DNA of 64,000 bases from Gracilariopsis chorda (Eukaryota; Rhodophyta; Florideophyceae; Gracilariales; Gracilariaceae), in contig NBIV01000038.1 of the NCBI GenBank assembly GCA_003194525.1, positions 62,001-126,000 on the forward strand, given 5' to 3'. Below the pieces are notes generated by a model. The model was not told the DNA's origin. It did no database searches and saw nothing but the letters and a program-made list of their open reading frames with translations. A program made the position numbers and the translations under genes. Every line of letters begins with the position of its first letter. The stretch's first letter is position 1. This document shows, in pieces, positions 1,890 to 63,810 of this stretch.

Positions 1890-2769
1890 TGAGGTGCAAT
1901 CCTCAAGGAGGAAGACTCAGCGATGTCCTGCGGACTTGATGTTTTTGCCGCTTTCGCGTGTTTATGATTACTACCGCTATTAGCGGGTGTCTCAGCCCTC
2001 AGCGGATCCGCACTGTGTGCCAGGTGCACACCTGTGCATGCGCCGTGTGCCGCCCAAGGCGTGAGTGGACCACTTGTGACACGGATAGTCAAGAGGAGGT
2101 TGGCACCACGGTGTGGGCATTTAGTTAACTTATATTTATTATTTATTAATTACTACACTATATAGTGGCTCGGCGACCTCGCCCTGACACTGAGTAAACC
2201 TCCCCAACCAGGGTTCTTGGCTCTAAGCCTTTTCCGCTTTCGCAAGTCTTCTACAATCCTCGGAGGTAAAGCCGCGTTACTAACGGTAGACCTATCCACC
2301 CTGCGTCACTAGGAGTATCACCGCCTTGGGCACTTGTCACTTAATTCACCACCGCCGTGTTCTCGCCCCTGTATAGGGTTTCTTTGTACCGTTTTCCGTG
2401 GTCCCGTTGGCCCAAACCCCTGTCGCCCCCAGTCGGGCATCTCCCGTATTTCCCTTACCCCACTCTCGTGGTTCCTACCCCTTTGTGTGGTTGCTCGTCA
2501 CCGCTGACGCGTGTCTCTCGTGCCGGTATCCCGTGACGTCTTCCCCCCACTTACGTGGACTCGTACTCCTTGGAAGGGCTGTTTTCCCATTCGTGGTGAT
2601 CCTAATCCTACCGTTTCAACTCTCCCCGCTTGGCGTGAGGGTGAGCCTCGGCTTTACAAACCGACTTCGTCGTGCTCATCCGGAGAGGCTCCGTTCGCTG
2701 TGTTGCCCTCGTGAGAGGAAGATTTCGAACGTCTTCGTGTGTTGTCCCGCTTGCGGGTATTGCAATACA
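1890..2769 (+). repeat. 3' LTR of element A (880 bp)
   Basis: Starts TGAGGTGCAAT and ends ATTGCAATACA, so TG...CA with partly inverted termini. It follows a purine-rich tract ending GGGGGATA, the same arrangement as before the 3' LTR at 29686. The AT-rich block at about 2118-2162 corresponds to AT-rich blocks in the LTRs of elements B and C. The last 60 bp align with the terminus of the element C LTR. The 5' partner and target-site duplication are outside the window. Confidence 0.8.
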
Positions 2770-19911: not shown

Positions 19912-20398
19912 TGTGATGCAAGGAGTAACTCGGTCATCCGAGGTGCGGAAATCACCAAGTCGATACGCGACGGTTCATACGTGGATTTCCACTTTATTTG
20001 GGATGTGCACAGTAGGTGCTGGCCACGGGCCATCTACTTAGAATTATCTAGATATTTCTAATATTATTTACTGTAGCTAGTGCGGCACTCCGCAGTACTT
20101 AGTGACGGGAAGGGTCGCACCTCAGTAAACTGGAGGATCATCGGGCACGGAACCCAAGTTCCTAGTTCCTGGAGCCTTAACCGGACCTCCGGACTAGTTA
20201 TAACTTGCGGTCTCCCGCTAAGCTTCCACCCCACACGGATTCCCGTGCTACACCCGTGCTCATGCGACCGAACCCCGGTTACCCGGACAGAAGCACCCCT
20301 AGGCCTTGCCGCCGCAAGCGGCACCCCTATTATCAGGGTAATTCGTGGACATCCACATCGCTACCGAGTGGCCTCGCGCCCCTAGTGGATGTACCACA
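19912..20398 (+). repeat. 5' LTR of element B (487 bp)
   Basis: Begins TGTGATGCAAGG and ends GATGTACCACA. AT-rich block at about 20041-20070 (TTCTAATATTATTTACTG) may hold promoter or poly(A) signals. Short ORFs in it recur in the 3' LTR simply because it is the same sequence. Confidence 0.96.
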
Positions 20399-22801: not shown

Positions 22802-25800
22802 GTGCCGGCTGAGGGGGACCGACCTCCCCGCTCCCCGGTATGGAGGCCCAAGGTTCTCCTTAGGCCAGGAAAGTCCGGCTCGACCGGAAGTCAAACGCAG
22901 TTCGACTGCGGATTAAGTCGACCATGGCGACGATACCAGTGCCCTGGGAGACGAACAGACCCTATTATGGTTATGACTAAACGTAACTATAAAGTATACG
23001 CCGATATCGGCACAAATCGACACTTGTTCTCGCGACGTCTTGCGGTACTCGATACCGACGCAGGACCGAATTTTATCAGGGTATCTGAACTCAGCCCTCA
23101 TGATCGGACCCGCATTCGAAGCGGCCCTCTACCGGATGTCCGGGACGCAAACAAGAAGCCTCTAGAATGTCTAGGTACCATACGCCTCGTCGTCCGTTTG
23201 GGAAACCATGTCGTCATGTTGGATTTCATTGTCTGCTCGACGCTGGCTGCCCAAGTTGTTCTTGGATGTGACTACTGTGACCGCTATGTGGAAGCAATAA
23301 GACCCCGCCTTCGGGAAGTGGAGATGGATGACGGAAGCACCGTACCAATAGTGCGCAGACCCCTGCAACCGGCTGCCAATTCAGGGCCGTTGCCCCCATC
23401 CCAGAACGCTGGACCTAGTGGGAGAACCTCTCCAAAGATTAAGGTAGCGGAACAGGTGGAGCTTCCTCCAAAATCTCAGACGTGGGTCACCGTAACCACA
23501 CAACGCCACGGACTTATCGTGATTCAACCCTTATCACACACGTACGAACGTAATGGAATTACCGCCGCCAACGGCGTTGCCCAGGTACAACCTAACAGAC
23601 CTTTCCGATTGTTGATTAGCAACTTCACCAATCATCCTGTGAAGTTTCACAAGAATCAGATGGTTGCCGTGGCTTTACCACATCCCACGGTACTCATACC
23701 GACGCACATTTCCCTAGCGGAAGTATTAGGGATATCCCTGCCGGACGAGATCTCGCTGTCAACTTCCGCTGAACTGGAGCAAGTACCGACACCGGGAGAC
23801 CGGGAATTAGCTAAAGCGCTCCCGTCAGTTGACGAATTGGACCTCTCCCATGTACCGGAGGAGTACCGGGATCGCTTACGCAGATTACTGCAGAAATACT
23901 CGTCCATGTGGGATGGGAACCTCGGCCAAATCGCCACAACAGAGCATCATATTGATCTCGTCCCGGGTACAAGACCCATTGCACAGCATCCCTACAGAGC
24001 TGGACCCCGAACGCGAGAAATCGAACAACAGCATGTGGATGACATGCTTGAAAAGGGGGTCATTGAGCCCGCACAATCCGCTTGGGCCTCCCCAGTGGTG
24101 CTCGTCCCGAAGACGGATGGTTCATTACGCTTTTGCGTGGATAACAGGAAACTGAACGCAGTGACCGTAAGGGATACGTATCCCTTACCCCGAATGGATG
24201 GATGCATCGACAGCCTCGGTGATGCCACCGTATTTACTACGCTGGACGCTAATTCCGGGTACTGGCAGGTGCCCATCGCGGATGATGACCGCGACAAAAC
24301 GGCCTTCGTGTGCCACGCCGGTCTTTACCGATTCAAACGCATGCCATTTGGCCTCACTAATGCGCCAGCTACGTTCCAGCGTGCCCTGGACATCATCTTG
24401 TCATCCTACAAGTGGAAGACCTGCTTGGTATATCTCGATGATATCATCATTTTCAGTAAGAACATGGAGAACCATTTTGAAGACGTCTAGTTGATACTAA
24501 AAAAGCTCCAGTCAGCTGGGATTACTTTGAAGCTAAAGAAATGTGAATGTTTCACGGATAAAGTCAAGTACCTTGGTCATTTGAACAAACCAGGACAGCT
24601 GGAGATGGACAAAGTCGCAACCGCGGCTATCCGCAAAGCCACACCCCCGCAAACACAAACACAATTGCGTTCCTTTCTGGGGTTATGTAACGTCTATCGA
24701 CGATTTGTCCCGCGCTACTCACACATAGCCGCGCCGTTGAACGCATTATTGAAGAAAGGACAGCCCGTCCAACTCAAACAATTCGTTGAAGCCGAGACGG
24801 ATGCCTTCGAAACGCTCAAGAAGACGCTGATCACAGCACTCGTATTGGCCCTCCCAAAACTGGGACTCCCCTTTGTGGTCGACACTGACTCCAGTGAATA
24901 TCAAGTGGGCTGTGCCCTTTTCCAGGAATATCCTGACGGCGAACGCAAACCTATTGGTTATTGGTCCAGATCGCTGCAATCAGCGGAACAAAACTACTCG
25001 GTATCTGAAAAGGAATGCCTTGCGGTTGTCTGGGCTCTTAAGACCCTCCGACCATACCTTCAAGGGGTGCATTTTACCGTCAATACGGACCATTCATGCC
25101 TCAGATGGCTACTTTCTATATCCGAACCGTCGGGACGCTTAATGCGATGGCGATTACGCCTCTCGGAATTCGACTTCGAAGTCAAGTACAAAAAGGGGCG
25201 CTCCAACGTCCGTGCCGACGCCTTATCACGGCTCTTAACACTGGGAGAAACCCAAACTGAAATCGATGATGACATCCCTTGTCTCTTCGCTGAGGACTCA
25301 CCTCATCTCCAAGCCGATGCCGGCGCGCAACATTGCACGGATTACGACGATGACTTCACCCTCGACTTGCTAATTGCGCAAGCAACAGACACCGCACCGG
25401 CGGAACAACTCGAGCGTATCTCGTTAGAAGAGCTTCTACGTGAGCAACACGCAGATGCCTTCTGCACCTCCATACGCTCCCGTCTTAACGGGGGGAGGGG
25501 TTACCCTTTGGCCTTGACAAGCAAGGAGTGCTAGTTCGAACTGTCGAAGCACAGGACCAGATCTTAATTCCACACGTCTTGAAGAGCAGAGTACTGCATC
25601 TCGCACACTACTCCCAGTTATCTGGACATCCAGGTGGCACAAAGTTATACTGGACTCTCAGGAAAGACTTTTATTGGCCAACATTTGCAATGGACTGCCA
25701 CGCCACGGCGAAGTTGTGTACAACCTGCGCGAAGAATCACATTAAGCTGTGGAAACGGAAACGTCCCCTGAAGCTGTTCCCGGCGAAAGCGCCTTTAGAG

Positions 25801-27720
25801 TACGTCAGCATTGACATATTAGGGGAACTGATTCGCACAAAGCGAGGCTATAGATACCTTCTGGTAATCACGGATCGCTTCTCGAAGCTGACTCGGACAG
25901 TCCCGCTGAAGCGGATCACGGCCGCGGCAATCGCGCAAGCTTTCATCAGAGAGTGGTTCTACGTCTACGGACTACCGTTGAATCTATTATCAGATAATGG
26001 GAAGCAATTCGTTGCGAAGTTCTTTCAGGACGTATGCCACATTCTCGGCGTGAAGAACGTGTTTACCACGACGTACCATCCGCAGACAAACGGGCAGGTG
26101 GAGCGTTTCAATCGCACGCTACTCGCCGCTCTTCGGCATTACGTGACGGACCACCCCAAGGATTGGGACTTGTATACAGACACGCTGTGCTACGCGTACA
26201 ATACGCAAGTTCACTCGACGACGAGAATGGCACCCTTCGAACTGGTCTTGGCGCGCTGCCCGCCGGCTCTACCAGTCAGACTGGACCAAGACAGCGAGTT
26301 GGAGGCGCCGACACCGGCTTCACACCACCTCAAGTGGAGGGATGACCTGAGACGACGCGCGGAACAGGCCGCAAGAGAGCTAGCGAAGGCCCAAGCCCGT
26401 TATAAATGGAATTATGATGCCAAACTACGCCCCATTATTCCGGATATCCGGGTCGGAGGTCACGTGTTCGTGCGTATTGAGCGTCCGGACGCTACGACGC
26501 GAGAAGGAAGGAGTGAACTCCGGAGGCGACATAAGCTATCCCCAGTAGTATCTGGTCCATATGAAGTAGTCGAACTCGACTCAGAGACGGTGGTTATCCG
26601 CAAGGAAGATGATAACGTCGAACGAATTTCACGAGACCGTGTGGTAACAGCCCCTGACCCCGTGCGAGACGGAACGCCCGTACAAGCCGCCGCATCACGG
26701 CCAGTGGGGGCCACTCAAGGCGAATCGACGACAAGTGTCATCTCTCAGCCAATCAGCAGCCCGGAGTTGTCCGACGTTCCGCCTCCCGGTATATCCGGCG
26801 CACAACCGCCACCAAATGGTACTGTAAGTGTCACACCCCGCTGTATATCAGCGCGTGACGGTTATGTGAACCAAATCCTGCGCACAGTGGAAGCGTCACG
26901 TGACCACCCGTACCCCGTGGCAAAGCCCACATCTTGGAAGGCCTCTGATTGGCCGAACCAGAGTGTCACTCACACCAAACCGCCTCCAGACGGAAAGCAT
27001 CCGCCCCCACAGCAACCACGAATGCGTGAAGAAGACGACGATTCCGCTGACGACAGCAAGCAGAAAGAAGGCCCACCGAACCTGCCCCTACAACGGAGAA
27101 CATCTCCAAAGGAAAAGAGCGTAAGCGCTGACCCCACAACGGTGGAAGAGAGGAAGCCGCCTCCAGCGGACGGATCCGCCGTGACCCCGGCCCTTGCCGA
27201 CAAGGCTCTCCAGAGGAGTCACCCCGAGATTATCTCGACTCCAAGTCCCTCGCATAGCGAGGTACACCTCAGGCGTACAGCAGCAGAAGAGGCTGCGTCT
27301 TCGCTAAACCGTCTGGACCAGCCGGGAGTAACACGAACCGGGAATAGCCCGAAATCACTTAGCGGAGAACGAAAACCCGCACCGGCAAAAACAGCCAAGG
27401 AGCTGAAAAGTCCGGCTACTCCGCCGGAGGATAGTCGGGAATCCCCGGAGAACGGGAGCTCAGTAGAGCGAGACGAGCGCGGCTCTCCGCAAGAATACGT
27501 GATGGACCGAATCGCCGATCACGCGTATGATGAGGAGGACCTCAAGCCCCGTTATCGAATTCGATGGTACAATTACCCGCCTGAAGCGGACACATGGGAA
27601 CCGATGGAGAATATCCCCCGATCCCATGTCGTGCGGTATCACCGCTGGAGGAGATTGCCGTTACCGGCGAACTTGGGTGACGCTCTCGTCGGTATCATGG
27701 GGGACTCCCAAATTGTCTAG
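22802..27720 (+). mobile_element. Pol of element B: protease, RT, RNase H, integrase, chromodomain
   Basis: Parts in order: aspartic protease region near 23045-23075; reverse transcriptase at about 23980-24600 with RFCVDNRKLN, YPLPRMD, MPFGLTNAP and YLDDIIIFS; RNase H at about 24870-25230 with the tail RWRLRLSEFDFEV; integrase at about 25590-26420 with the HHCC zinc finger, SIDILGE, LLSDNG and HPQTNGQVERFN; a long Pro/Ser-rich linker; and a chromodomain at about 27490-27650 (RYRIRWYNYPPEADTWEP). Chromodomains steer integration to marked chromatin in chromoviruses. The region is in more than one open stretch, with about one to three breaks. Confidence 0.93.
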
Positions 27721-27899
27721 GGACCGTCACGTTAGCGTGGAAAAAAAAGAAGTGGAGACCCATGAATAAGGAAAGGCGAAGAAGCGCAGTCTAAGGCAGT
27801 ACAGTTCTAGTTAACTAGTTTATTGATTAGGGATCGCCCTATATACTTGTGCTAGGCCAGGACGCCACCGGTACATGTGCTATCACAATCGAATCACGT
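27721..27899. other. Gap between pol and the antisense ORF of element B
   Basis: 179 bp between two convergent stop codons, with A-rich and AT-rich strings (GGAAAAAAAAGAAG, TTTATTGATTAG, CTATATACTTG). It may hold 3' processing signals for both transcripts. Confidence 0.4.
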
Positions 27900-29685: not shown

Positions 29686-30172
29686 TGTGATGCAAGGAGT
29701 AACTCGGTCATCCGAGGTGCGGAAATCACCAAGTCGATACGCAACGGCTCATACGTGGATTTCCACTTTATTTGGGATGTGCACAGTAGGTGCTGGCCAC
29801 GGGCCATCTACTTAGAATTATCTAGATATTTCTAATATTATTTACTGTAGCTAGTGCGGCACTCCGCAGTACTTAGTGACGGGAAGGGTCGCACCTCAGT
29901 AAACTGGAGGATCATCGGGCACGGAACCCAAGTTCCTAGTTCCTGGAGCCTTAACCGGACCTCCGGACTAGTTATAACTTGCGGTCTCCCGCTAAGCTTC
30001 CACCCCACACGGATTCCCGTGCTACACCCGTGCTCACGCGACCGGACCCCGGTTACCCGGACAGAAGCACCCCTAGGCCTTGCCGCCGCAAGCGGCACCC
30101 CTATTATCAGGGTAATTCGTGGACATCCACATCGCTACCGAGTGGCCTCGCGCCCCTAGTGGATGTACCACA
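29686..30172 (+). repeat. 3' LTR of element B (487 bp)
   Basis: Same length as the 5' copy, four substitutions, followed by the GTAAC duplication. Confidence 0.96.
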
Positions 30173-53389: not shown

Positions 53390-54085
53390 TGTGGTGCAAT
53401 ACCCCAAGATGGGACAGACACACGAGGGTGTTCGACGTCCTCCTCAGCAGGGTAGCGCAGCGACAGAACCACCTGTGGTGAGTACACGGAGCCGGGGGTA
53501 AGACCGGGACTCACCGTCACGACTGGCGTACAGGTGTAGAGACAAAGACAGACCACGGAGTGGGAAAGCGGAAAATGCAGCGACACACGAGTGGTGGGCG
53601 ACGCGCAAGAACGGCACGGTGTCCACACGAGTGGGGCGGTGGCGAAAACAGCAACGGTAATCACCGGTAGTTGCTAGTGAAGCAACACCTGTATACGGGG
53701 CAAAGAATAACAATCGCTGTAAAAGCGTGCACAAAAACAAACACAATAGTGGTAAGAATGTGCTGAGCTCCACGAGGTGGGTAACTAGGCCTTCACAGGA
53801 TGGTGTCTCTCCAGACGGAGGTGGACACTCACCAGGGAACCTGAGTTAGAGCCAGACACTCGCTTGTTGCGTTTACTTTGACCCGGGCAGCCGGAGCTCA
53901 CACACATAAGTAGTGGTGGTCCGCGCCCTGACATTACAGTAGTAATTAACTAATAATAACTAATAATGTCCCTACGGGGGTGCAAAACACTACACACGTG
54001 TGGCACAAGCCAGCAATGCTGTGCACTACACTTGTCAACCAAATTGGGGCCCTTCCAACGGAAACAGATTACCGGTGTAACACTC
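53390..54085 (-). repeat. 3' LTR of element C (about 696 bp)
   Basis: The plus strand starts TGTGGTGCAATACC at the border with copia coding sequence, and its first 60 bp align with the reverse complement of the last 60 bp of the element A LTR. The inner end is set at ...GGTGTAACACTCA (TGAG on the minus strand) and is less certain, because the purine tract next to it is weak. An AT-rich block lies at about 53938-53970. Confidence 0.72.
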
Positions 54086-54125
54086 ATACTTCACGGCAAA
54101 GTGGTGAGCATCGCCAGAGCGGGAT

Positions 54126-56102
54126 ATGAGCGCACGACGTGCTGATACCGCTAGGAGCGTTGCACTTCATCTCCCCCTCCTTAAGGAGCAAGAACCACAT
54201 TCGGTGAGCGTTCGCCGCGACAGCGCGTTGTGCGTAAGTATATCCGCGTCAAGTGATGGTACCGTATCCGACTCGGGTTTTGTCTTCACTCAAGTGGATA
54301 TCCACCGAGAACAACTCGACTTCAGCAACTCTCCGCCTATCCCGCGACGTCCTGCTTTACCTTCCGCGCCTTCAGCGATGAATCCCAGCAACAACGATCC
54401 GCATGGCGGGAACAATCTTCCGCCATCGGGTTTCTTTTCCGGTTTTCCGACTGCACCGCTTCTGTCCTCTGCGGGTCATCCAAGCAACGCCTCGGGCGGT
54501 ACACCTGCCACTCCGAGTATGTCGGTTCCGTCGCCTGCGGCGAGCGCACTACCGTCGTACGACGAGCTGGTATCCGTTGATCCGGCCGAGCAGCCTTCTC
54601 GCTACAGCGGTGCGCCTTGGTTCCACCCAACGTTGGTGCAAAATGAAGATCTCATCGAGCAGTATGCTGATGGTAGCGGACTCCTTCTGGGCGATCTCCA
54701 CGTATGGATGACTCTCAGCTTCGACTGGCGTAATTGGGTCGCCGTGCCGACGCACTTCTTGGTCCACCGTCGTCGTGAGAGTGGGGCGCAAGCGCGTATC
54801 GCGATGACTCAGCTCGCGTATCAGCGGTTGTATCGGACTCCATCGGAATTCCCGGTCCCAGAAGAATATCAGTTTGATATTGCCTTCTACCGCACCCAGG
54901 GTGAAATGGGGTATGGGGACCGCTTAGCAGCGTTGGCTCCGTCCATCCCAGAGCGGGGTCCAGCGGCATCTGTTCACCAGAACTACCTGTGTTGGGCAAG
55001 GCCGATACTTCGTGCTGAGTTCCGTTATCTTCGCCATAATCCGCGGTCTAACTTCCTCCAGATGATCCGTTTTGAACGTCGTTCCCGGTCCCGTTTCGGG
55101 TACATGATACCGTATCAGAACGTTGAAGCTGAGCGCATCCGACCGCAGTACATGCGAGGCCGTTACGTTCCCCTACCGAGGATGTGGGCTGCCCACGAGG
55201 CTTGCAGGGGTTGCTACATCGAGCTTCCGCCATGCATCACCTACATCGGTAGTCGACTATGCAGCAATCCGTTCTCCGGGTGGTGGTCCGTTGTCCTCAC
55301 TGAGTGGGTCGCCCGCGCAGCGGCGTATCTCGTCTTCGAGGTTTACGACCAGTTCAGACTGTGGTATCTCCCTCCGCGAGTGCGTAGTGGCATCCGTTCA
55401 TTGGATCTCTCCCTCGTCCTCGGCGGTGCCGGCAACTATAATGAGGCTATCTTCCTGTTGGACGCGATGGACCAGGTTGACTGGAACAGTGTGCCCATCC
55501 AATGGAGTCGCCATCATCAAGGTACCAATCCAGCCGACCGGTCTCCGGGGCGCCGAACTCCGTTGGCGGGTGATTACGTCTACTACGATCCCGTAGAGCG
55601 TTGCTTCATCTCCGAGCCGGAGGCATTGGCACTCCGCGATCGCGAGCGAGTTGTTCCACCGGGTCATCCGACGGGCTACATCGTCACTGACGGATACTTC
55701 CAACCCTATGAGGAGGCCGATCCAATGATGGACAATGATCCTCCCGCGACTGGGGTGGGCGCAAACGGTGGCGGTGGCCTTCCCTCAGCTGAGGGCTTCA
55801 GGGTGCCGGCGTACTCTACTCCGGGTCCATCCGTGGCTCCTCCGGCTGGGCCGAGTCAGGTTCCGTCTTGGAACATTCCTCACGTCGGTGGTGGTCCCTT
55901 CCATACCGCTCCGGTTGGAAGTGGCACGCCATCGGCGAGTGTGACCGGTCAGGACCGTGCGGCCATCATTGCCCAATTCCTTGGCGAACTAGGAATGGAT
56001 ACCTCGGGAGCTTCCGGTGACATCGCGCAAATGCGGGCGGCCATGCTAGCGCTGCTGGCGCAGCCAGGCCATCCTCATCAGAGTGGTGGTCCATCCTCTT
56101 GA
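54126..56102 (+). CDS. Antisense ORF of element C, unknown function (658 aa)
   Basis: Same family as 10-1854, which it matches closely through the core: APWFHPT, SFDWRNWVAVPTH, YRTQGEMGYGDRLA, RPILRAEFRYLR, RFERRSRSRFGYMIPYQN, GRYVPLP, ACRGCYIELPPCITYIGS, VLTEWVARAAAYLVFEVYD, LDLSLVLGGAGN, MDQVDWNSVP, SPGRRTPLAGDYVYYDP and GHPTGYIV. The first ATG lies 40 bp from the inner LTR end; Met85 (54378, MNPSNNDPHGG) aligns with internal Met residues of both relatives and may be the true start, since the 84 residues before it are poorly conserved. The tail is Gly/Pro-rich and ends in a helix-like segment (AAIIAQFLGELGM...). It is convergent with pol, 380 bp between the stops. The frame is fully open. 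No domain recognised. Confidence 0.78.
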   Translation: MSARRADTARSVALHLPLLKEQEPHSVSVRRDSALCVSISASSDGTVSDSGFVFTQVDIHREQLDFSNSPPIPRRPALPSAPSAMNPSNNDPHGGNNLPPSGFFSGFPTAPLLSSAGHPSNASGGTPATPSMSVPSPAASALPSYDELVSVDPAEQPSRYSGAPWFHPTLVQNEDLIEQYADGSGLLLGDLHVWMTLSFDWRNWVAVPTHFLVHRRRESGAQARIAMTQLAYQRLYRTPSEFPVPEEYQFDIAFYRTQGEMGYGDRLAALAPSIPERGPAASVHQNYLCWARPILRAEFRYLRHNPRSNFLQMIRFERRSRSRFGYMIPYQNVEAERIRPQYMRGRYVPLPRMWAAHEACRGCYIELPPCITYIGSRLCSNPFSGWWSVVLTEWVARAAAYLVFEVYDQFRLWYLPPRVRSGIRSLDLSLVLGGAGNYNEAIFLLDAMDQVDWNSVPIQWSRHHQGTNPADRSPGRRTPLAGDYVYYDPVERCFISEPEALALRDRERVVPPGHPTGYIVTDGYFQPYEEADPMMDNDPPATGVGANGGGGLPSAEGFRVPAYSTPGPSVAPPAGPSQVPSWNIPHVGGGPFHTAPVGSGTPSASVTGQDRAAIIAQFLGELGMDTSGASGDIAQMRAAMLALLAQPGHPHQSGGPSS

Positions 56103-56482
56103 GGGAGCGAAGTGATGTTCCCACGGTTGGCGTCCACCATCCCTGATAGTTGGGGTCGTGGTAGTGGTAGGCGAGGGCAATTACGTGTTAACGAATAAAC
56201 GCTTAACTTCCCTCGTGGGGCTTGTGTCTTTTTCTTCTTTTTCTTCCTTGCTTCTTCCTATCCAGGGTCTTCTTCTTCTCTTCATGAGCCAGCTTCATCT
56301 TCTCTTCCATGAGGTTTCCATCTTCTCGCATTCTCAAGGCATCCATCTTCACACCGGAAAACCGGGCTCACGGCTCACCTGACCAAGTCAGTGGATTATC
56401 CAACGAGCGCTCGGTCAATCGTGCCTGGTATTCCCGTTCTGGTACGGTGGTGATACTGCACGATTTTCGATCGGGGCAAGTT
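56103..56482. other. Gap between the antisense ORF and pol of element C
   Basis: Holds a TC-rich stretch (TTTTTCTTCTTTTTCTTCCTT near 56228), no antisense-ORF sequence, and the far end of the chromodomain region on the minus strand. Confidence 0.5.
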
Positions 56483-59400
56483 CTATACCGGTTCGTCCGT
56501 GTTATGGGACGGCGGGTACCCATACCAGCGCACCTGGTACTGAATATATCCCTCTGGGTTGTAACTGTGCCCGACGATACGGTCGATAATGAACTCCTTC
56601 GAGTAAACGTCACGCTTCGCGGTTCCGGTTGCAGTCCGTACAACGGCTGTTTCCGACGGCAAAGCCGGTGATGAGTCCGTCCAACGGTTCGTGGTGTTCG
56701 CTTGCGGCGTTGACCATGTGATTTTCTGATGAGGGTCGACTGAATTCCTTGTTGAGGTTGACGCTACCCCATCGGATTCGGGAGATCGTACCGCTAGTCT
56801 GCGAAGGCTTCCTCGTCCCATTTCCAACGGTTGGTGACGGGGAGGCGGTTCATGTGCCACGGCGGGTGCGGGTTGGCGAGGCGTATCCAAATGGTTGGCT
56901 GTAGTCGTCCTGTACTGCAGAGCTGTGTCACCGTGAATGGTTGTGTGGTGCACATCTCGCAACACGTGGCGATCAGGCTCTCCTGCATATGCGGTGTGGG
57001 CCATCCCTGCTGGGGTTGACGCAATCAGTCTTTCAATACTGTGAGCTGAATTCAGATGATCTGAGCTGCTTGGTACAGTACCAGAGAGACTTCCTCTAAT
57101 GAGAGACGATTCAATTTCAGATAACCCATTTGTGGGACCTTGCGCATCCACTTGCGAGGGTGTCGAAGCGTCCTGTACATCAGGGTTCCATACACCGGGA
57201 TGTGCCGTGACTTGCTTAGTCTGCGCTGCAGCGGCGGGGGTTCTTACAACTTTCTCGACGGGAGCCGGTGAGTAGGGGGCCAACGGAGCGTCCGGGTTCC
57301 GAGCCAGGCTTCCTGTGTTCATTCCTCCAACGGGAGATGACAGCACAGTGTCTGTGTCCGGTTTTCTTTGCAGCGTCTCGCGAGTGCGGTTGGCAGTGTG
57401 CTCCCTTAACTGAGGTGACTGCGTAGCGTGCTCACGAGGCTTTCCATCGGCGGGGCCGGTCCTTCCAGTCTGCTGAGGTAGTTCCACGCGTGCGGCGGTA
57501 GCGTGCGGTGTCCCTACTTCAGGTTGCCGTGCCTCACGAGAGTTTACAGGAGCTCGCGACGGCGGTGTAGACTTCGCTGAAAAGCGGGATTGACTGGCCT
57601 CCTCCCCCTCCTGAGCCGGGGCGGCGACGGGGGCTGAAACAACGTCTGACGGTGGTTCGACACGCGGCGTAAAGCGCGAGCGAACGTGTACCGGAGATTC
57701 CGAAGATTGCTGCGACAGAATCGGTATGTCCGAGAGACCTCTCGATGGGCGCGCAACGCTAATTGCGCGGTGCGAGGAACCTGCTTCTGCAGTGGGCATC
57801 AGTCGAGCGTCCGGGATTCCGGGAGCCAGTACAACTTCCGAATGCGGGTTAGGGGCTTGTACGACGCGATCGCGGCTGAACCGTTCATGAGAATCGCCAA
57901 CTTCCAGTACAACTGTGTCTCGGCTCACTGAAATGACCTTGTAGGGGCCATCCGCAATGGGCGAGAGTTTGTGGCGTTTCTCCTTCTCAGGGTTGTAGTA
58001 TTCCTTCCTGACGAAGACGAACTGTCCTGCTTCCAGTGAGGGAAGGGGCCGACGGACTCGGGCATCGAAATTTCGTTGATACGCTCGTTGCGCTCGCGTC
58101 ATTGACGATTTCGCGACCGGGACCATCCGTGTGAGCCAACTCTTCCATCGAAGGTAATGATCAACCGTTGACGGGTACTTGTCCTGCGTTGGCTGCGACT
58201 CAATCGCCACAGGCGGTGGGGGACGTGAGAGCACCAGCTCGAAGGGTGATAAGCCAGTTACTCTGTGTACCTGCGTATTGTACGCGTACGTCACGGTGTC
58301 TGTGTACAAATCCCATGTACGGGGGTGCTCAACTGTATACGCACGTAAAGCGGACAACAACGTTCGGTTAAACCGTTCCACCTGCCCATTTGCTTGGGGA
58401 TGGTATGTCGTTGTAAACAGATTTCTGATGTCAAGTATTCTACAAACATCTTGGAAGAAACGCGCCGCGAACTGCGGTCCGTTATCGGATAAGAGATTAA
58501 CCGGTGGACCGTAGACGAGAACCCAGTGACGGACAAATGCTTCTGCCACGGATCGTGCGGTAATCTTCTTCAACGGTACAGTCCGGACGAGCTTCGAGAA
58601 CCTATCCGTTACTACGAGTAGAAACTTGTTACCACGTGCAGTGTGAAGGAACTCACCGAGTATATCGATGGCGACAAATTCTAGCGGAGCCCGTGCCGGG
58701 AACAGGGTCAATTTCTTCGCATAGCGGCGTAGCTTGACTTGCTCACGAGCACAATGGGTACAAGACCGAACAATCGCGTAGCAATCCAACGCAAGTGCGG
58801 GCCAGTAGAAATGCCGACGTAACGTCGCGTATAGCCTCCTTCCACCAGGGTGTGCAGCTAACTTCGAAAAGTGCGAGAGATGTAATACTCTCGACTGGAG
58901 GGAATGGGGAACCACTATTTGTGACGAAGAACACACAGTCCTTACCAATTAACCTTGTGAGTCGACTCCGAAAGGAATGTTAGCACCTCCATTGAGTTGG
59001 GCGCGTATCTTCGTACAAAACGGGTCTCCATACTGTTCGCGGATCATCTCTTCGGGAGTGATCGGTGCGAAGGATCCGGTATCCGGTTCGTCACCGTCAG
59101 CGACGAGCAGATCATCAGCAATATCATCTGAAACCAGATCATAACGTAACTTCTCTTCAAGAAGGAAACAAGGGATATCATCGTCATCGACGGAAAGGGT
59201 TTCCACTTCCGTTCCCAAACGAGACAAAGCATCAGCCTGTGTATTAAGGGAACCCTTTTTATAGGCGACTTCATAATCGAACTCAGCGAGGCGCAGTCTC
59301 CAACGCATCAAGCGGCCCGATGGTTCCGTGACGGACATTAACCAACGCAAAGCGGAGTGGTCCGTATTAACGGTGAAGCGTGTGCCTATCAGATATGGTC

Positions 59401-61621
59401 TGAGTGTTTGCAGAGCCCATACCATGGCGAGGCATTCCTTTTCAGGGACTGAGTAGTTCCGTTCGTGGACGTTGAGTGTTCTGGACCAAAAACCGATTGG
59501 TTTCCGTTCCCCATCGGGAGTCGTTTGGAATAACGCACAACCAATTTGGTAATCACTCGCATCCGTATCCACGGTATAAGGTAACCCGTCCTTAGGCAAC
59601 GATAATATCGGTGCAGAGGTGACAGCCTCCTTCAGAGAGTTGAAAGCTTCCACCTGTGCAGGGTTAAGGGGGCCCAGTTTTGGCGGTTGTCCTTTTCGAA
59701 GAAGATCATTAAGGGGTCCCGCAATCTTTGCGAAGCTTGGGATGAACCGTCTATACACGTTAAATAACCCTAGAAAGGAGCGGAGTTCTGTTTGAGTTCT
59801 CGGGTGCTTGGCCTCTTTGAGAGATTTGACCCGAGCTTCCTGTATCAGCAAGCGCCCAGGGCGAATAACGTGGCCCAGGTACTTAACCGATTCGGTAAAG
59901 AATTTGCACTTCCTCAGCTTGAGGGTTACTCCAGCATCACGTAACGTGGTCATGATTTCACGAACGTGTTCTAAATGATCATCCAAGGTGTTGGAGAAGA
60001 CTATGATATCGTCAAGGTAGACGAGGCACGATCGCCATTTGAAGCGGGCCAAGAGGATATCTAACGCACGCTGGAAAGTAGCGGGAGCGTTTGTTAACCC
60101 AAACGGCATACGCTTAAAGCGGTACAAACCTGAATGACAGACGAAAGCGGTCTTATCACGGTCTTCCGGTCTTACTGGTACTTGCCAGTATCCCCAGTTC
60201 GCATCCAATGTGGAGAAGACAGTCGCCTCACCGAGAGAGTCAATATACTCGTCCATTCGCGGTATGGGGTACACGTCTTTCACAGTGGCGGCATTAAAGC
60301 GACGGTAGTCGATGCAAAAACGCCAAGTCCCATCGGGTTTCGGAGCCAGTACCACTGGGGATGCCCACGGTGATTGAGCCGGTTTTATCACGCCTTCGCG
60401 GAGCATTTTATCCACATGGAACTGTTCTTCCTCCCTTGCTTTGGGACCTGCCCTATAGGGGTGTTGAGCAATCGGCCTGGTGTCCGGTAACAAGTCAATC
60501 CGGTGTTCCGTGGCCGACACCTCCCCGAGGGATCCATCCCACATTGAGGTGAACTCTCGCAACATTTTTCGCAACTTCTCGCGGTGTGAATCCGGTACAT
60601 GTCCGAGATCCAGATCTTCTAACTCCTTCACAGGGTCCAACTTATCGTAACTCGTAGGAACGGCCTTCTTTTCCGAATCTTTCGTGCTGAGCGACTCCAC
60701 AGAAGAGTGGGAACCCTCCCCCTCCTTAGCATGAGGCGTATCATCTGGTTCTTGAACTAATCCGAGTACATCGGCTGCGCACACCTTTGTAGGGACTAAA
60801 GCCGTTGGATGCGGAAGTACAGTACCAACTACTTGGTTCTTCGCCAGATATTGCGGCTTCTTGCCAAAGTTGGCTATCAAGATCTGAAAGGGGTGTTCAT
60901 TTGAAACCTGAACGACACCGTTAGCCAGGGCCAATTGATGCTTCTCGTACAGCGATGTGAGCGGTTGAACAACACGCAATCCTCTTGTAGCGGCAGTAAC
61001 CGATACCCACGCCTGTGATTCGGGCGGTATGGAGATTGGCCGTGCGACACGTAGCTTGGGCGACTCCTTTGGAGGTGACGAATACTGCAAGGGGGCCGGA
61101 AGAGGAACCAACTTGGATGAGGCACGCCGTAATGAACGACGAACTATCGGAATGATGGAGCCATCTTCTAGTTCAACTTCTCGCGCACGCGGACGAATTG
61201 ACTCTACGAAACGATCGCAGAAGTCACATCCCAAGATAACGGGGGCCGCTAGCGTCTTACAGACGATGAATTCGAGCTGCATCGAACAGTTACCAATCCT
61301 GATCATCAGAGAAACCGTACCAGCCGTCTTCAACGGGTTCTTATTGGCATCAGCAACGTCCATGACGGGTCCTTGTCTAACACGAGAACGCACTTCAGGC
61401 GGTAAGAGAGATTCGACAATGAAATTGGGGCCGGCACCTGTATCCAGAATAGACAGATGACGCACCATATACTGGGCGGAAAGGCCAAAGTCAGCGAAAA
61501 CTTTGTAGTTTCGCTTGGCCATAACCATGACTCTATCCGGTGACCGATGATTCTTACACCGTATCCACGGGCGACGTAACTCACCGAGGTGGGCCGAGTC
61601 CACGTCTGTGGTGGTCAACAA
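56483..61621 (-). mobile_element. Pol of element C: protease, RT, RNase H, integrase, chromodomain
   Basis: In minus-strand order: aspartic protease with LDTGAGPNFI (about 61430-61450), RT at about 59950-60520 (RFCIDYRRFN, YPIPRMDEYI, MPFGLTNAP, YLDDIIVFS), RNase H at about 59220-59600 (ending RWRLRLAEFDYEV), integrase at about 58000-58900 (HHCC finger, AIDILGEF, LLSDNGPQF, HPQANGQVERFN), a long Pro/Ser/Thr-rich linker and a chromodomain region (about 56480-56580, QYQVRWYGYPP). It is the close counterpart of pol in element B. The region is in more than one open stretch, about two breaks. Confidence 0.92.
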
Positions 61622-61716: not shown

Positions 61717-63810
61717 TCAGTTTTCCTGAGCGGCATCCGTTTTCACGGGAACAGTATTCCGCGGCAATGAAGCGGTTTGCGGAGCCGGTTGCCGAGAAAC
61801 AGAAACATCCGCCGAAGCGGCTTGATTCGCAGAAGCGGTGGCCAAGGAAGAACCAGTGCTGGGTACCGCTTCAGATTGACCTGGTGTAAACTTACGAGGA
61901 AACTCGGTCTTCGCACGCAAGTATGCGGTGACAGGCACTGATGCCTGTTCTTCCGTGGTCAGGGCTTCAAAGTTAACAACCACTTTGGGCATGTCCCTCA
62001 GAGTCATGATACACTGTGGGGCCGTGTGTCCATGGTCGTAACAAAGGTAGCAGATCAACTTCTGATGTCTCCCGATATTTCGGTTGTCCTGAAACTTCAC
62101 CTCTGACGCGCGCGCATCCACCCAACCAGGTCTCTGGTAACGATTACCGTTAGCATGCGGAACTTGTGGGCCGCGAACGCGTTGGCGATCTGCATACAGC
62201 ACTTGACTATCCAGTTCCACCGAAGGTTCCGTTGTGGACGGGAGCTCCGTTGTGGGTATGGAAACCAGATCATGCTCAGTAAAGTAAACATTGTCAACCT
62301 CACGTCGAGAGTATTCCTGGGGCAACAGTGAAACTGATGACGGGGCGGCCTCCATGTGTAGGGCCTGAGATCTGACTCGGCTTCCGGAGCGGGCACGTAG
62401 GGCATCTCCTTCCGCCTTCGCGTACTGTACCAATTCTAAGTAGGTAACTTTCCTCCTGTCTTCCCGACGTTGGGCAACAAGGGTGCGAATAGCCGGATCC
62501 AATCCGTCGACAAACATTGTACAACGCTCGCTAGCGGAATAAACATTGCCACATCGGTGGAAGGCCTTGTTCAGTCTGACTGAGTATTCTGTCTCCGTTT
62601 CCTTTGGGCGTTGCTTAGTATCGCGTAGGGCCAGGATAGCTTCCTGTATTGCGGTTCCTGTCGCGTACGAGCGGAGTAAATACTGAACGGCTTCGGGCCA
62701 ACAGGTGACCCCTCCTTCAGAGGCGCGAGACGAACCTCTTACAGAGTTGAATTGATCTTCAGCGATTCCACGTAGGAAATACGGTAAGGCGACGTAAGCC
62801 TGTCCTTCACTCATTCCGAGGATATCTGCCTCCGCTACAAAGCGTGAAAGAAAATCCAGAACGAGGATCGGATCCTCTCCAGTGAAATTCTGGTTACGAA
62901 ACGACAAAGCCATCCTCTTGATGCCGTCTTTTACCTTCCCAGTTCCACGGGGTGTACGATCCAAAGAGGAATCTTCCAAACGGTAATACCGATATGATAA
63001 AAGCTTCCTGTACAAAGGGTTAGTAGGCTTCAGTTCCTTCAAACCGGAGTGCTTTCTTCCCTTCTGTCGGGCTCTAATCTCACCATGGGTGACTGCTGAA
63101 CGACGCGAGTGCGATGAGCGAACGCGACGGTCACCGTCAGCAGACGAGTCTGACAAAGCGGATTCTGCAGAGCGGTTGGAATTCACCGATGACCGGGACG
63201 AATCCGAGTCATAGTCGTTGTCATTCCGTTTTCGGAGGCGGTTCTTCGTGCGAGCACAGTCACCATATCGATGAGAAACCACCGCTGGTGCGTCTGCGAC
63301 ATTGTCATCACCTCTGATGGTATTTTCCAACGTCTCAAGACGGGACAGAACCCGATGAAACTTCGAGTCAACATCCTTCACCATATCTGGGTAACCCCTC
63401 AAAACCTCCAAAAGGGAATTAACATCAGTCCGTAAAGTACGTAGATCTTCAGATACACCTCCGACGAGATCGGCATCAATCCTCATACGGAGTGCATCAA
63501 CCTCATTGACGAGGGCGGCGTGAGAGCTTTCAAGCACCGAGGTCTGGGCTTGAAGGTTCTGCACCTGAGCCTCCGACTCGACAAAGAGTGCGTCCTTCTC
63601 CGCAGCGGCGGGTACGAATCTCCTAAGCGGGGCATCCGATGAACCAGCAACTGGCGGTTGCGACGACTTGGTCGATAGCTTCCTGCTTCCAGATTTCCGG
63701 TTATCAACATCCGAACGTTCTGGGACCGACCGCGAGCGCGGGGGCAAGTCAGCACCGACTTGTCGCGACTTGGGCTGGCCCGAACCACGGGATCCATTTC
63801 CAGAACCCAT
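61717..63810 (-). mobile_element. Gag of element C
   Basis: Starts at the ATG at 63810 (MGSGNGSRGSGQ); the frame is open further upstream but without an ATG. About 697 residues: a basic Ser-rich N-terminus, coiled-coil-like region (about 80-170), basic region, capsid-like helices around ILVLDFLSRFVAEADILGM, and a CCHC knuckle CYLCYDHGHTAPQC near 62045. It ends about 95 bp before the start of pol, as separate frames, like element B. Confidence 0.87.

Follow-up and report, generated by a model that had tools for sequence, protein, structure and literature searches.

The window, meaning the whole stretch of 64,000 nt of Gracilariopsis chorda DNA analysed here, holds three chromodomain-type Ty3/gypsy elements, A and B on the plus strand and C on the minus strand (Table 1). 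The LTRs of all three begin with TG and end with CA, the flanking 5-bp target duplications are perfect, and a purine-rich tract precedes each 3' LTR. Pfam scans of B and C revealed reverse transcriptase (RT), RNase H, integrase and a C-terminal chromodomain, in this order, in pol, the chromodomain with E values of 1e-8 (B) and 1e-6 (C), both above the Pfam cut-off, which places these two elements among the chromoviruses. The pol frames are interrupted in the window copies of B and C, and longer C-type frames occur elsewhere in the genome. Two direct repeats were also observed in the window, 41710-41892/45329-45511 (95% identical) and 3802-4027/10961-11186 (87% identical), either of which may be a further LTR pair or fragments.

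Table 1. Features of the three gypsy elements and of the antisense frames discussed in the text (window positions unless a locus is named; TSD, target site duplication)
Feature	Position	Strand	Remark
Element A 5' LTR	-8248..-7369 (left of window)	+	gag-pol also left of window
Element A 3' LTR	1890..2769	+	98.1% identity to 5' copy; TSD AACCT
T1 ORF of element A, 614 aa	10..1854	-	from ORF list; full-length relatives in genome
Element B 5' LTR	19912..20398	+	LTR pair 99.2%; TSD GTAAC
Element B gag-like ORF, 715 aa	20613..22760	+	assigned by position; no significant Pfam match
Element B pol, three pieces (RT, RNase H, integrase, chromodomain)	22802..27720	+	broken copy
AATAAA on antisense strand of B, 76 nt past T1 stop	27819..27824	-	consensus match only
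T1 ORF of element B, 575 aa	27900..29627	-	frame open as far as 29807
Element B 3' LTR	29686..30172	+	LTR pair 99.2%; presumed site of an antisense promoter
Element C 3' LTR	53390..54169	-	LTR pair 99.0%; TSD ATATA
T1 ORF of element C, 658 aa	54126..56102	+	likelier start Met85 at 54378
T1 conserved core of copy C, residues 161-530	54606..55715	+	dN/dS 0.10
AATAAA, 92 nt past T1 stop of C	56194..56199	+	consensus match only
Element C integrase and chromodomain frame	56483..58948	-	Pfam scan
Element C protease-like (sub-threshold), RT and RNase H frame	58949..61621	-	Pfam scan
Element C gag-like frame, from first ATG	61717..63810	-	assigned by position; no Pfam match
Element C 5' LTR	64091..64870 (right of window)	-	LTR pair 99.0%
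T2 frame, 407 residues	L074:360-1580	antisense to pol	AATAAA after stop
Further antisense frame, 200 aa	L074:1807-2406	antisense to pol	AATAAA after stop

In A, B and C alike, the interval separating pol from the 3' LTR contains a long ORF (T1) on the other strand from gag-pol, which is the position of the aORF-3R class of antisense ORFs. A first-pass annotation of the window had reported these ORFs with 575-658 residues, and their exact positions and lengths were reproduced; the common core of about 350 residues that it described extends over about 370 in the alignment of the three proteins. No sense ORF of at least 200 aa in the window ORF list overlaps any of the three. The first ATGs fall between 44 bases inside the LTR edge and 58 bases outside it. 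The innermost belongs to copy C, for which Met85 appears the likelier start from the alignment. An AATAAA follows the T1 stop by 76-109 nt in A, B and C; in B and C it falls in the space separating T1 from the convergent pol, and in A it faces the final bases of the pol frame. Among 41 loci scanned, 25 carry AATAAA or ATTAAA within 200 nt of the stop. Close copies of B and C account for 20 of these, and only three of 12 more distant B relatives (L033-L044) have such a signal. A TATA-like site upstream of T1 was seen in B only, too near the first ATG.

The T1 protein begins with a variable N-terminus rich in Pro, Ser and Asn. In the core that follows, about 370 residues long, Trp, Arg, Tyr, Gly and Pro are invariant at many positions; behind it come a more loosely conserved tail and a short C-terminal motif. 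Lysine is scarce: 38 genomic ORFs of 434-665 aa contain 1-10 each and three database relatives 2-5, compared with 18-75 in nine gag/pol frames; the sole lysine of copy C falls within the doubtful N-terminal extension. Composition predicts 9-19 lysines, and the observed number was lower in ten of ten proteins (P<0.05 in seven, the tests not being independent), so the low count is explained in part by composition. The core carries a net charge of -2 to -8 in the three window copies, and a nucleic-acid-binding core, raised by the roughly 40 arginines, was ranked second for this reason.

The earlier statement that the core fits no known domain agrees with the searches, as T1 gave no significant match in Pfam, PDB (sequence search), PHROGs or viral contigs. 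Pfam-A on six T1 proteins returned nothing but one sub-threshold match to DUF6127 (E 0.11), with neither a TRP28 (PF04195) nor a bZIP domain. Kinship of T1 to gag, integrase or the second antisense family T2 described below was likewise rejected by profile comparison, the hhalign probability being about 0.1% for gag and integrase (0.1% against the gag frame profiles, in a set that also included two pol frames of A). A search of 5.8 billion proteins, scoring the best 8,000 candidates per search, yielded three T1 relatives among the matches listed. One named relative of the C protein was among the matches listed, BWQ96_10156 of Gracilariopsis chorda, copies of which in this genome are 97-99% identical over residues 88-565, with none at 100%. 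AlphaFold2 models of whole T1 and of the core (six sequences) were poor, with mean pLDDT of 38 and 42, and only about residues 8-104 of the core model were moderately confident; second looks at the models with VIA-align gave no match.

The family reaches well beyond the three carrier elements first noticed, all of which are real. Four protein searches of the genome (91.3 Mb, 1,081 contigs) returned at least 304 T1 rows, and the 243 used for the linkage list, with duplicates and fragments left out, correspond to at least 242 places, 213 of them longer than 1.2 kb. Sorting by identity gave at least six families (A-F). The T1 frame is open in seven of the eight full-length C copies and in eight of the 14 full-length B copies (both at >=96% identity).

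Linkage to gypsy elements was assessed from the RT side with the C RT and the B RNase H region as queries, all 208 rows being used and giving 163 distinct places. T1 was found among the matches listed within 7 kb downstream of RT at 80 of these, antisense in all 80 and on the same strand in none, LTRs not being part of the count; at the other 83 no T1 was among the matches listed within 7 kb, a figure that should not be read as 83 absences. On contig C110 a T1 place is found upstream of an RT, and a B-type RT of its own flanks it on the opposite side. In the closest rows, T1 was linked to 16 of the 19 C-type RTs (>=84% identity) and to 17 of the 17 B-type RTs (>=94%), based on 61 of 91 and 37 of 117 RT rows, so that within these rows T1, like the plant aORFs, is conserved and present in most copies. 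Absence of the ORF from most related elements, the survey outcome named beforehand as counting against the gene, is not shown by these figures. Another sample, of 150 RNase H places, had T1 downstream in 17, antisense in each, and T2 in 10; neither was among the matches listed at 123, many of which are near-identical members of a 5.7-kb family. RNase H matches on the same strand were also observed at regular spacings of 5.68 kb or 6.35 kb on contigs C573, C509, C883, C1001 and others, which suggests either head-to-tail gypsy arrays sharing LTRs or assembly effects.

RT identity to C is 60-92% for C9 (a second C-type copy, L064), A, D, F, E and B; with C these make seven carrier RTs, which fall into a single clade (100/100, midpoint root) apart from three non-carrier RTs. 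Within the carriers the RT tree resolves only C+C9 and D+E, and both pairs recur in the tree of the antisense proteins. In that tree B and its relatives branch furthest from the rest, and the RT tree is contradicted at no supported fork. Three gypsy families with RTs about 40% identical to that of C (the 5.7-kb family, a 6.3-kb family and one on contig C190) have no T1 in the 3.7-3.9 kb past RT or RNase H. The C190 family shows a 256-aa antisense frame after pol (L073:3401-4168); it overlaps two sense frames (267 and 235 aa), the sequence there has a low-complexity look, and the frame may be chance. Two database proteins, P0004 and P0005, are nested in T1 diversity next to F and E, suggesting that the T1 families are older than this genome if these proteins come from other species. 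Loss of T1 was also met: a 1.3-kb internal deletion, equivalent to about 48-1333 of the window, has removed most of T1 from an A-family copy (L084, contig C312). On contig C3 (100042-119087), a tandem of three A-type RTs has a spacing of about 8,812 bases as against 10,138 for the whole A unit, from which spacing alone we infer a unit shortened by 1.3 kb through a T1 deletion.

One measure of selection is the comparison of C with C9, a single pair for which dN/dS was calculated with 95% intervals from a bootstrap over codons. The ratio was 0.210 (0.154-0.276) for the whole T1 ORF, 0.174 from Met85 and 0.101 (0.065-0.151) for core residues 161-530, compared with 0.317 (0.224-0.448) for gag, 0.255 (0.178-0.358) for protease-RT-RNase H and 0.356 (0.273-0.477) for integrase. 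In this one pair the core has an interval lower than, and separate from, those of the three gag-pol regions, whereas that of the whole ORF overlaps them; the N-terminal 84 and C-terminal 128 residues gave 0.40 and 0.69. Stop codons are present in gag (two) and integrase (one), so decay has set in there in one copy at least. The T1 frame has no stop, while the other five frames have 17-39 codon positions with a stop in either or both copies (17-37 in the sense frames over T1). Third codon positions hold 135 of the 229 changes in T1, and synonymous and nonsynonymous changes gave a Fisher P of 5e-29. Divergence between C and C9 is itself uneven, dS being about twice as high in T1 (0.33) as in gag-pol (0.13-0.20) and nucleotide divergence peaking (17.6%) at the LTR-side end of T1; recombination between elements is a possible cause of the raised T1 divergence.

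Comparisons in other families gave similar ratios, namely 0.15-0.18 for B copies against L034/L036 at a dS of about 2, near saturation, and 0.13-0.16 in three of four pairs of E copies against L062 at a dS of about 3, also near saturation, the fourth not being computable. Within families the T1 ratio scatters over about 0.3-1.5, and such values near 1 among young copies are expected, as insertions decay or drift after landing. The dN/dS test set in advance therefore came out in favour of the gene, with values near 1 only among young copies of one family and 0.1-0.2 between lineages. T1 is under strong purifying selection in replicating lineages. The first-pass proposal that selection acts on the antisense protein is borne out by these subfamily ratios, the third-position bias, the constant orientation and the compatible RT and ORF trees, and T1 is almost certainly a genuine selected accessory gene.

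T1 is not the only antisense family in this genome. An element on contig C25 (L074) carries, antisense after pol, a 407-residue frame (T2) and a 200-residue frame. Relatives of T2 occupy 101 rows, many being fragmentary or weak matches, and at all ten places where it was linked to RNase H it is antisense (69 of the 101 rows used). Nine aligned members (L074 and relatives L075-L082) share an invariant Cys, His and two Asp (C265, H354, D359 and D367), a residue pattern from which T2 is possibly a peptidase; no Pfam or PDB match was found, and profile search gave one database relative. Two informative pairs gave dN/dS of 0.15 and 0.34, one young pair gave 1.0 and one was not computable. By sequence comparison T2 is unrelated to T1, and it sits in other gypsy families of the same genome.

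Antisense ORFs of this placement have been described in flowering plants. The aORF-3R class includes maize Grande gene23, rice RIRE2, Silene Retand ORF4 and bean PvRetro13, and the passages available from two reviews describe such ORFs as lying between pol and the 3' LTR, occurring in most family copies, conserved and of unknown role (PMC7264820, PMC11963269). T1 resembles them in place and orientation and is set apart on their published description. Grande gene23 is described as having its own upstream promoter and a nuclear product (PMC7264820). Retand elements are given as non-chromoviruses confined to flowering plants, with a TRP28 domain encoded in 97% of clusters (PMC11963269); in contrast, T1 has no significant Pfam match and its host elements are of chromodomain type in a red alga. 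Outside plants, Boty of Botrytis cinerea is reported with an antisense ORF between pol and the 3' LTR (PMC7264820), a slot shared with T1, the likeness being one of description.

T1 and HBZ of HTLV-1 are both antisense accessory genes. HBZ is a bZIP protein that overlaps sense accessory genes, whereas T1 has no bZIP domain by Pfam, occupies its own interval and is presumably the larger of the two. HBZ is named as an antisense gene in one review (PMC11963269), and the antisense promoter of HTLV is placed inside the 3' LTR in the other (PMC7264820). Lysine-desert proteins of the ubiquitin system, described in two further sources as having long lysine-free stretches (PMC10169902, PMC10665810), are like T1 in composition only; Pfam found no ubiquitin-system domain in T1. 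The open-literature titles and abstracts listed contained no report of antisense or additional ORFs in LTR elements of red algae or Gracilariopsis. The T1 protein family and its host group are likely new, and the antisense ORF class itself is known from flowering plants and a fungus.

The anatomy of the locus suggests how T1 could be expressed. With the ATG so near the LTR edge, an antisense promoter would lie within the 3' LTR or the adjoining stretch, and the transcript would terminate close to where pol ends, at an AATAAA of its own, to give a separate mRNA, as for Grande gene23 and HTLV; antisense transcription from the 3' LTR region is accordingly placed among the probable features of the system on anatomical grounds. 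The product would be a trans-acting accessory protein with a regulatory or counter-defence function, binding proteins of the host or of the element and not forming part of the particle. An accessory role is suggested by the low-complexity, faster-evolving N-terminus, the conserved core without positive charge and the lysine poverty. A lysine-poor protein would resist ubiquitin tagging, and its composition suggests that T1 is long-lived or acts near ubiquitin ligases. The deletion in L084 and the shorter A-type array suggest that T1 can be dispensable in cis, as expected of a protein that could be supplied in trans. By analogy with Grande gene23 and HTLV, a trans-acting accessory protein is the most likely product. 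The regulatory or counter-defence role itself, drawn from composition and analogy, is put forward tentatively, at somewhat less than an even chance, and the first-pass annotation rightly kept possible roles as guesses. Taken whole, the explanation of T1 as an antisense accessory gene with a separate mRNA and a trans-acting regulatory or counter-defence product has a narrow balance of probability in its favour. Weighing against it are the A-type copies shortened in T1, by which the gene may not be needed in cis, the patchy AATAAA or ATTAAA signal and its place opposite pol in A, the TATA-like site seen in B only, the 83 RT places with no T1 among the matches listed, and the overlap of the whole-ORF dN/dS interval with those of gag and pol.

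Several other readings were weighed against it. T1 might serve the structure or replication of the element, translated from an antisense mRNA of its own, for instance as an additional particle protein or as a chaperone for assembly or nuclear import. The core constraint above that of gag and pol in the one pair compared, together with the frequent presence of T1 among the closest RT rows (C, 16 of 19 at >=84%; B, 17 of 17 at >=94%), would suit an essential element protein; the lack of any hhalign similarity to gag or integrase frames (probability about 0.1%), the net negative core of the three window copies and the existence of an A copy with T1 deleted point away from it, leaving it unlikely, if worth keeping in mind. 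The slot between pol and the 3' LTR is the place of env, and an antisense gene for an envelope-like or cell-to-cell movement protein could be imagined there. It is highly improbable given the lack of a significant Pfam match, the lack of a convincing signal peptide or membrane segment on reading the sequence by eye, and the sense orientation of plant env-like aORFs in the review cited (PMC7264820).

Gene capture is described for other LTR elements (PMC7264820), and T1 could in principle be a captured host gene now carried as passive cargo. Such carriage is hard to call passive with dN/dS at 0.10-0.21 between C and C9 and at least 80 of 163 RT places linked to T1. Captured cargo is improbable, and a host copy of T1 outside the elements may exist. 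Long antisense frames can also arise opposite GC-rich coding sequence, so that T1 might be a chance frame or a mirror of sense coding, or the antisense RNA alone might be of importance. These readings have practically no probability left, since no sense ORF of at least 200 aa overlaps T1, the sense frames over copy C have 17-37 stop positions, and changes gather at third positions of the T1 frame with the Fisher P given above; a chance or mirror ORF was ruled out on these grounds.

The trans-acting accessory gene preferred here bears on a class of genes for which the passages available from the two reviews give no established function (PMC7264820, PMC11963269). T1 provides a high-copy family whose core, in the one pair compared, is more constrained than gag and pol, alongside other gypsy families of the same genome that are without T1 or carry an unrelated antisense gene. 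Such ORFs may drop out of annotation, as one named T1 relative was among the matches listed versus at least about 240 places in the genome. It is conceivable, if rather doubtful, that red-algal gypsy elements repeatedly built antisense modules, with the unrelated and selected T1 and T2 both serving as counter-defence against host silencing or degradation in a role likened to that of retroviral accessory proteins. T1 lets the question of antisense genes versus the host be tested in a lineage distant from plants, fungi and animals.
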